Source of the DNA: Sanguibacter suaedae
Lineage (GTDB): Bacteria > Actinomycetota > Actinomycetes > Actinomycetales > Cellulomonadaceae
Direction of reading: 5' to 3'
Length of the DNA stretch: 64,000 nucleotides
NCBI RefSeq assembly: GCF_016342785.1
Contig: NZ_JAEINH010000008.1
Location: 1-64,000 of the forward strand
How positions within the stretch are numbered: the stretch's first letter is position 1; each line of letters begins with the position of its first letter. Below the pieces are notes generated by a model, which was not told where the DNA came from, made no database searches, and saw nothing but the letters and a program-made list of their open reading frames with translations. A program made the position numbers and the translations under genes. This document shows positions 2,758 through 26,984 of the stretch, one piece after another.

Positions 2758-5476
<2,719 letters not shown>

Positions 5477-24853: not shown

Positions 24854-24875
24854 CCGACCCTTCCACCGAGCCCTC

Positions 24876-24912
24876 GGCGACCCTCCGCACCTCCCCGGTG
24901 CGGAGGGTCGCC
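24876..24912 (+). terminator. Hairpin terminator after katA
   Basis: Two exact 15-base arms, GGCGACCCTCCGCAC and its complement, with a 7-base loop, start 22 bases after the katA stop. The following bases are not T-rich. It separates katA from the next promoter. Confidence 0.8.
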
Positions 24913-24943
24913 GTGGGTGCTCCGACTTTGTGACAATAGGCGC

Positions 24944-25318
24944 ATGACCGTTGACCCGAGCACCGACGCCACCCCCACCGATCCCTCGGCCTCCCAGGCC
25001 GTCCGGGACATCGCCGACGTCGCGGCGGTCGAGGTCATCACGACCGCCGCCGTGCACCTCATGAGCGCCGCGGCCGTCAAGTGCGGGCTCGCCGACGAGC
25101 CCGGGGCGGCGGACCACCTCGATCTCGACGAGGCACGCAAGCTCATCACCGCCCTCGCCGCGCTCGTCACCACCGCGGCACCCGACATCGGCAACCAGCA
25201 CGCGCGGTCCCTCCGCGACGGGCTGCGCTCGCTGCAGCTCGCCTTCCGCGAGGCCTCCCTCTACCCGGACGCTCCCGGTGAGGGACCGGGCGAGAAGTTC
25301 ACCGGGGCCGTCAGTTGA
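24944..25318 (+). CDS. DUF1844 family protein
   Basis: A 124-residue protein with a variable Thr/Pro-rich start and a helical core (ASQAVRDIADVAAVEVITTA, MSAAAVKCGLAD, DEARKLITALAAL). These match DUF1844, which in actinomycetes usually sits beside infC. Its biochemical role is unknown. A GACAAT box with six bases before the ATG suggests a leaderless transcript. It ends in a TTGA overlap with the next gene, so it heads a three-gene unit with a membrane protein and a protease. Confidence 0.85.
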   Translation: MTVDPSTDATPTDPSASQAVRDIADVAAVEVITTAAVHLMSAAAVKCGLADEPGAADHLDLDEARKLITALAALVTTAAPDIGNQHARSLRDGLRSLQLAFREASLYPDAPGEGPGEKFTGAVS

Positions 25319-26229
25319 CCGAGGCCCCCCGCCAGCCCCGGTCCTGGGTGCCGGAGGACGGGCCGGCGCGCACCGACGGGCCGCCTCCGTCGATCCCTCC
25401 CTCGGCTCCTCCGCCCCCGGCGCGGCACGCCCCGCCGGAGGGCGTCCGGACGGCCGGGCACGAGGCCGCGGGCCGGGTCGCCGACCCGTATCCGGCCGCG
25501 GTGCGTCCGACCTTCGACGTCCCGCTGTCCACCCCGGCGATCCCCCAGTTCACCGACACCGTGTCCGCGCCGACCGGCACGACGACCTCCGGGCCGGACC
25601 ACGGCGCCCAGCACACGGCATCGCCCAGGGGCGTACCGTCCCCCGGCGTCGGGCGTCGGGCACGACGGTCCCGCGGCGAGGGCACCGCCATCGGTGCACT
25701 CGGGTCGGGCGGCACCGGCCGCCGGTCCGGTGGGCTGCCGGTCGTGGTCCTGGGTCTCCTCCTCGTCCTCGCGCTCGGGGCCGGGGCATACCTCGCCGTC
25801 CTGTCGAACAAGTGGAAGGAGCGCAGCGACGAGTGGGAGGCCGAGTCCCGCACGCTCGGGGGCGACGTCGCGGAGCTCACCGCCGACCTCGCAGGGATGA
25901 CGAGCGAGCTCGCGACCGTCCGGGACCAGCTCGCGACCGCGCAGACCCGGATCACCGAGCTCGCCGACGAGAAGGCGCAGGTCGGGGACGACCGCGAGAA
26001 CCAGCGGATCATCGCGGACGACGTGCAGGAGGTCGCACAGACCGCGCTCGACGTCGCGCAGTCCCTCGGTGACTGCTCGACCGCCCAGGGCACGGTCATC
26101 AACCACCTCGCGACACCCGAGACCACCACACCCGAGGAGACGCAGTCCGCCATCGACCAGGCGAACACCGTGTGCACGTCCGCGGTCGACGCGTACAACT
26201 CGCTCCGCGACGACCTGGCGGCACGATGA
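25315..26229 (+). CDS. Proline-rich, single-span membrane protein with coiled coil
   Basis: I do not recognise a family. The 304 residues divide into three parts. Residues 1-138 are a Pro/Gly-rich, probably disordered cytoplasmic region. One transmembrane helix follows at about 140-163 (VVVLGLLLVLALGAGAYLAV). An extracytoplasmic part starts with a heptad-like coiled coil at about 165-225 and ends with two cysteines (GDCST, NTVCTS) that could pair. The TTG start overlaps the DUF1844 stop and the end overlaps the protease start, each by 4 bases. The arrangement suggests a membrane-anchored partner of the protease or of a surface complex. Confidence 0.75.
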   Translation: MTEAPRQPRSWVPEDGPARTDGPPPSIPPSAPPPPARHAPPEGVRTAGHEAAGRVADPYPAAVRPTFDVPLSTPAIPQFTDTVSAPTGTTTSGPDHGAQHTASPRGVPSPGVGRRARRSRGEGTAIGALGSGGTGRRSGGLPVVVLGLLLVLALGAGAYLAVLSNKWKERSDEWEAESRTLGGDVAELTADLAGMTSELATVRDQLATAQTRITELADEKAQVGDDRENQRIIADDVQEVAQTALDVAQSLGDCSTAQGTVINHLATPETTTPEETQSAIDQANTVCTSAVDAYNSLRDDLAAR

Positions 26230-26984
26230 CACCGGCCGACGCGCGGCGCGGCCCACGCGCACCCCGAGGGGTCCTGCTCGTCCTCGCAGCAGGGTTCCTC
26301 GTCGGCGGGTGCGGCGTCGTCCCCGACGCACCCGGTCCCATGCCCGACTCCGTGGTGCCCTCCGAGCCTGCAGGCGCCGTGGCGGGGCCCGACGGGCACC
26401 TCTCCCCCGACGGCTTCGACGCCGCCCAGCGGATGGCGGTCCGCATCCGCAACGTCAGCTGCGCGGACGTGGTCCGTGGGACCGGGTTCGCGATCGACGA
26501 GAGGACACTCATCACGAACAAGCACGTCGTCGACGGGACCACGGAGATCCAGCTGAGCACCTACGACGGCCGCGACGTGAGCGTCACGAACTCCGGGGCG
26601 TCGTCGCTCGCGGACCTCGCCGTGGTGCGCACCGCCGAGGACCTCGACGCCTTCCCCGAGCTGGCCCCGACCGACCCGGCACCCGGAGACCCCGTCACCG
26701 TGGTGGGTTACCCCAACGGTGGACGGCTCACGGTGACGGACGGCACGGTCCTCGAGTACGGCTCGGACCCGCTCAACGCGAACCTCGGCCAGGTCCTCCT
26801 CACGGACGCACCCGTGGAACCCGGGAGCTCGGGATCAGCGGCCCTCGACTCGGAGGGTCGCGTCATCGGCGTGGTCTACGCGAAGAGCTCGACGGGGCAC
26901 AGCTACCTGGTCCCCGTGAGCACCCTGCGTGACCTCCTCGCCGACGACGCGGGATTCGTCCCGCAGGAGGTGCCCGCCTGCTGA
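26226..26984 (+). CDS. Trypsin-like serine protease, predicted lipoprotein
   Basis: A 252-residue secreted protease. The N-terminus is basic, then hydrophobic, then a lipobox LVGGC, so lipid anchoring outside the membrane is likely. The chymotrypsin-fold triad is visible: His in TLITNKHVVDG, Asp in SSLADLAVVRT and Ser in EPGSSGSAAL. There is no PDZ domain, unlike HtrA. The ATG overlaps the previous stop by 4 bases. Substrate is unknown; the neighbouring coiled-coil membrane protein is a candidate partner. Confidence 0.85.
   Translation: MTPADARRGPRAPRGVLLVLAAGFLVGGCGVVPDAPGPMPDSVVPSEPAGAVAGPDGHLSPDGFDAAQRMAVRIRNVSCADVVRGTGFAIDERTLITNKHVVDGTTEIQLSTYDGRDVSVTNSGASSLADLAVVRTAEDLDAFPELAPTDPAPGDPVTVVGYPNGGRLTVTDGTVLEYGSDPLNANLGQVLLTDAPVEPGSSGSAALDSEGRVIGVVYAKSSTGHSYLVPVSTLRDLLADDAGFVPQEVPAC

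Follow-up and report, generated by a model that had tools for sequence, protein, structure and literature searches.

A coiled-coil membrane protein and a lipoprotein protease encoded as a gene pair in Sanguibacter suaedae and its relatives

The 64,000-nucleotide stretch of Sanguibacter suaedae DNA analysed here (contig NZ_JAEINH010000008.1, positions 1 to 64,000; herein referred to as the window) encodes on its forward strand a membrane protein with an outer coiled coil (the coil; 25315..26229, 304 aa, TTG start) and, directly behind it, a lipoprotein serine protease of S1C/MarP-like type (26226..26984, 252 aa). We propose, with a probability of roughly 0.55, that the functional unit is this two-gene pair rather than a trio, and that it is a split, lipid-anchored MarP-like protease for which the coil supplies the missing scaffold. 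An earlier note on this DNA had added the DUF1844 gene immediately upstream (24944..25318, forward strand, 124 aa) and read the three as an envelope protease with a membrane adaptor and a cytoplasmic partner. The three overlapping genes and their coordinates are real, as are both 4-base overlaps (TTGA where DUF1844 meets the coil, and ATGA at 26226..26229, where the coil stop overlaps the protease ATG at 26226). Co-inheritance supports the protease with a dedicated membrane partner but not DUF1844 as a third member, which we judge to be a neighbour outside the module; among relatives, conservation as a unit extends to the coil and protease alone.

Conservation, loss and duplication of the pair

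At the level of sequence, the pairing is well supported: coil and protease are conserved, lost and duplicated together. Of 240 confirmed relatives, we examined the 80 best, a set that leans to close kin; all 80 loci contain a coil, and in every one it sits immediately before the protease. The gap between the two is exactly -4 in 71 of these 80 and in 29 of 31 loci of a second set (30 loci from the window's own family, f1, plus L108), and we regard the overlap as conserved because of this recurrence; the script behind these tallies chose the start codon nearest -4, a bias that is equal at the coil–protease and DUF1844–coil junctions. Elsewhere, the gap is -4 in all five f3 loci. In family f9 it is -4 for nine of the 12 first copies and for four of the nine second copies, and in families f8 and f17 it measures 1 to 74 bases.

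Losses are likewise joint. Across 36 loci of f1 (one of which, L098, stops at a contig edge), the protease is found at the site in 31 and the coil, searched with the window query, in 30 of them; L082, in which this search gave no coil, was excluded from A1 and A2, although L180, on a contig of equal length, does show a coil. Both genes are absent in four (G009, G015, G029 and G033), and G407 is a fifth case of joint loss. In G015, which has lost the pair, a Spore_YtfJ-family gene (PF09579, E 3.4e-6; L081 5061-5942) occupies the space that separates DUF1844 and sseB, and in G010 a gene of the same family (L076 7118-7573) lies between the protease and sseB.

Duplication also involves both genes. 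Nine of the 12 f9 loci, and likewise L108, encode two proteases, each preceded by a coil, and the nine second copies tested form one clade in both the coil tree (support 0.997) and the protease tree (support 0.887); the pair was therefore duplicated as one unit. The second copy of L108 was excluded from both trees, and the L223 protease, which has a very long branch, may have been included in the wrong frame. Two irregular loci accompany these: L234 (G189) has a third coil copy, lacking a protease of its own, between two coil–protease units, and in L245 (G390) one continuous open frame (3860-5245) covers coil and protease, which we do not count as evidence of a fused protein because an internal Met and a lipobox lie within it.

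The pair is present in at least 17 of the 109 genera sampled from the order (78 of 396 genomes). This count derives from 83 genomes matched by the coil profile A2, from which five weak matches were dropped (G082 and G261 in f13; G152, G206 and G229 in f15); four of the five (all but G229) were read and contain no protease there. The locus was read in 37 of the 78 pair-bearing genomes, and the remainder are counted by coil match alone. Three of 394 genomes in a class-wide sample match the coil profile, namely the window's own genome, G025 and G522; the match in G522 (E 4.4e-7) lies outside the order and has the same pair anatomy.

The protease, the coil and their relation to known systems

The earlier note's anchored, trypsin-like protease is borne out by a lipobox, VGGC, ending at Cys29 and by a match to Trypsin_2 (PF13365, E 1.2e-26). 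The protein has the S1C (HtrA/MarP) fold, and its triad (H100, D130 and S202) and two further cysteines, Cys79 and Cys252, are invariant in all 11 aligned rows, seven of which are MarP. Alignment A3 combined the window protease with 58 of the 79 distinct proteases of relatives. In further relatives, where strict catalytic-residue patterns flagged the protease, candidate His, Asp and Ser residues were seen on reading. The Cys pair falls at the positions of the MarP disulfide (Rv3671c; NF033740), and a corresponding bond may form in the pair protease. However, the protease scores 82.6 bits against a curated MarP cut-off of 250, shares only 25-26% identity with the MarP rows and is 252 residues long compared with 385-394; it lacks the four-helix membrane half of MarP, having instead a single N-terminal hydrophobic stretch that ends in the lipobox, and is lipid-anchored and encoded with a separate coil partner. 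It shares the S1C fold with HtrA, DegS and DegP but differs in being a lipoprotein with an extra Cys pair that is not known from the HtrA family. No PDZ match was found in the protease, in which the last model element is a helix at residues 231-239 of 252. Membership in MarP or the PDZ-HtrA proteases was rejected on the score, the missing four-helix half and the lack of a PDZ match. A defence system was also considered and set aside: among the PADLOC models, the protease matched two of RT-Protease_XI (best E 1.1e-18, confined to the protease domain) and, more weakly, three others, and the coil matched JetC (E 8e-4).

Full MarP is found in 55 of the 109 genera and is absent from the window's own genome and from all 34 pair-bearing f9 genomes. 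It occurs in 5 of 17 pair-bearing genera versus 50 of the remaining 92 (p 0.07 by Fisher's test) and, counted by genome, in 16 of 78 versus 160 of 318, although genomes are not independent of one another; replacement of MarP by the pair is thus suggestive only.

The anatomy that the earlier note gave to the coil was confirmed; the protein has one transmembrane (TM)-like stretch, a low-complexity inner tail, an outer part and exactly two cysteines. The hydrophobic stretch lies near residues 136-161, behind a Pro/Gly/Ala-rich tail of 142 residues (25315..25740) that we take to be cytoplasmic, given the single TM stretch. Compared against protein families, the coil open reading frame gave only coiled-coil-type matches under the cut-off. 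Across 106 proteins, the length from the TM stretch to the C-terminus is near constant (quartiles 161-166 residues), whereas the inner tail varies (median 83 residues, range 0-657, with some long tails reflecting far-upstream starts picked by the script). In an AlphaFold2 model of a 174-residue fragment (pLDDT 90, pTM 0.53), the TM stretch and coil form one helix (11-93), followed by a helical hairpin (97-136/143-173; 25993..26226 in the window). The long helix ends in a conserved motif, LADEKAQVGD (25960..25989), in which L86, E89, K90 and D95 of the fragment are invariant and A91 and G94 are invariant or at least 90% conserved (A2 and A4, the latter comprising the window plus 63 of 73 coil fragments). 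Exactly two cysteines occur in the last 160 residues of 71 of 73 coils checked. In the fragment these are Cys124 and Cys157, both invariant in the alignments; each hairpin arm carries one, roughly equidistant from the turn as deduced from the numbering of the model, and the hairpin is perhaps stapled by a disulfide between them.

Five coils of f8 genus g32 have no Cys in the hairpin region. The f8 coils of L224-L228 and L116 lack the two-Cys hairpin and yet are paired with a triad-bearing, Cys-containing protease. The two g32 coils that were read, L224 and L116, stop shortly past the EKA stretch, which is kept; this points to the EKA..GD hinge, and not the hairpin, as the indispensable part. 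Against solved structures, the coil sequence returned only one match (E 0.82) and its modelled fold returned 293, none at E<=0.001 and none an informative relative.

The earlier note knew of no described system with the make-up of the trio, and among the open-licence papers listed by our searches we found no description of a coil–protease pair, as judged on titles and abstract openings; DUF1844 is named in one such paper. Partial counterparts exist. The lipoprotein LbcA is the partner that activates the envelope protease CtpA (PMC11021448). CtpA-LbcA and Prc-NlpI resemble the pair in combining an envelope protease with a separate partner but differ in that the lipoprotein there is the partner and here is the protease. 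SteB of Mycobacteriales (Rv1698) has a single TM segment followed by an outer coiled coil and activates the envelope enzyme RipA (PMC12977500); it has a globular beta/alpha core, whereas the coil model has only the helical hairpin.

Possible workings of the pair

We hypothesize that coil and protease bind each other on the outer side of the membrane and that the coil would there substitute for the membrane half of MarP or the PDZ of HtrA, whether by scaffolding, substrate presentation or activation. The resulting complex may process envelope proteins, possibly including cell-wall hydrolases, much as MarP activates the peptidoglycan hydrolase RipA in acid (PMC8565819). The adaptor role of the coil is inferred, and MarP-RipA and CtpA-LbcA are models of how the pair might work, not evidence that it does. 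A more elaborate version, which we offer tentatively, holds that in bacteria of this order the pair is a split MarP acting beside or instead of the fused enzyme, with a lipid-anchored catalytic subunit and a TM coiled-coil subunit; the EKA..GD hinge would dock the protease, and the two-Cys hairpin of the coil together with the protease Cys pair would confer a response to redox or envelope stress.

An equally tentative alternative is that the coil serves the protease as its dedicated substrate or as a releasable sensor. In this view the outer part of the coil is cut, for instance near the EKA..GD hinge, to signal across the membrane. DegS, which acts on RseA, is a precedent for cleavage that signals through the membrane. 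The tight coil–protease pairing, the conservation of the hinge that joins long helix and hairpin and the presence of an inner tail in most coils examined are all consistent with such a role; however, the tail is very variable in length and of low complexity in the window, where no cytoplasmic signalling domain was found in it, and no sigma factor is among the identified neighbours (infC, fur, kat, sseB, hisA and hisH).

It is rather unlikely that coil and protease are independent and adjacent only because a conserved gene order has been passed on vertically. Most cases do come from one family at one conserved site, but losses and duplications affect both genes at once, and in f8, f17 and G522 the stretches that were read show the pair away from infC and sseB as well (in f8 and f17, neither gene was found in the approximately 8 kb read around the pair).

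DUF1844 and the host block

The pair is inserted in a block formed by infC, sseB and hisA, and DUF1844 looks like a neighbour that belongs to this block and is separable from the pair. In the window, the upstream side holds a catalase gene and a Fur-like gene (both named by eye) and, on the other strand, infC, and SseB (PF07179), hisA and hisH (hisH by eye) lie downstream on the other strand. A very stable hairpin (24868-24922, -50.9 kcal/mol, z -9), which was missed by a T-run terminator scan, lies between the catalase gene and DUF1844, the start of which follows some 20 bases later; a scan for promoter and terminator consensus sequences found no match. The DUF1844 product itself fits its family (PF08899, E 5.5e-16; 58.9 bits against a gathering score of 27). 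DUF1844 is present in 50 of 59 genomes, including the window's own, and in 49 loci fetched, searches with the window proteins found infC in 44 and sseB in 42.

In the order sample, 248 of the 396 genomes have DUF1844, comprising 71 of the 78 that bear the pair and 177 others. The earlier note's proposal of DUF1844 as a cytoplasmic partner is unsupported, and what that note had named as refuting it is largely observed: 177 of the 248 DUF1844 genomes lack the pair by coil profile, although the position of DUF1844 is not random where the locus was read, its usual neighbours being infC and sseB/hisA. All five genomes that lost the pair (G009, G015, G029, G033 and G407) retain DUF1844. Conversely, seven pair-bearing genomes (G101, G168, G253, G303, G402, G189 and G241) have no DUF1844 match genome-wide, and in all five f3 loci the pair lies between infC and sseB with DUF1844 absent. 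The DUF1844–coil gap is -4 in 21 of 80 loci of the larger set and 12 of 31 of the smaller, and exceeds 60 bases in 24 of 80. No DUF1844 match occurs in a further 7 of 80; most of these may be cut, because in six the sequence that precedes the protease match is shorter than 3.2 kb, and the seventh (L141, from a metagenome bin) has infC on its upstream side and no DUF1844. In all three long-gap relatives that were read (L100, L144 and L185), an MFS transporter gene on the opposite strand (PF07690, E 3e-32 to 9e-32) separates DUF1844 from the coil, so that DUF1844 and the pair are unlikely to share one mRNA in these relatives. At neither junction does the overlap establish the fixed stoichiometry that the earlier note had drawn from it.

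A true trio, in which DUF1844 would be the cytoplasmic partner of the coil's tail, is highly improbable: the -4 overlap with the coil in the window, in five of five same-genus relatives and in 21 of 80 loci, and the DUF1844 matches in most pair-bearing genomes, speak for it, but we rejected DUF1844 as a partner given pairs without it, its occurrence and retention without the pair, the variable spacing and the intervening opposite-strand gene.

If the two-gene reading is true, the pair would constitute a MarP-like envelope protease of two subunits, not described so far, with its scaffold encoded by a separate gene. DUF1844 would no longer count among the likely partners, and the natural duplicates of the pair in f9 would provide built-in controls of partner specificity.
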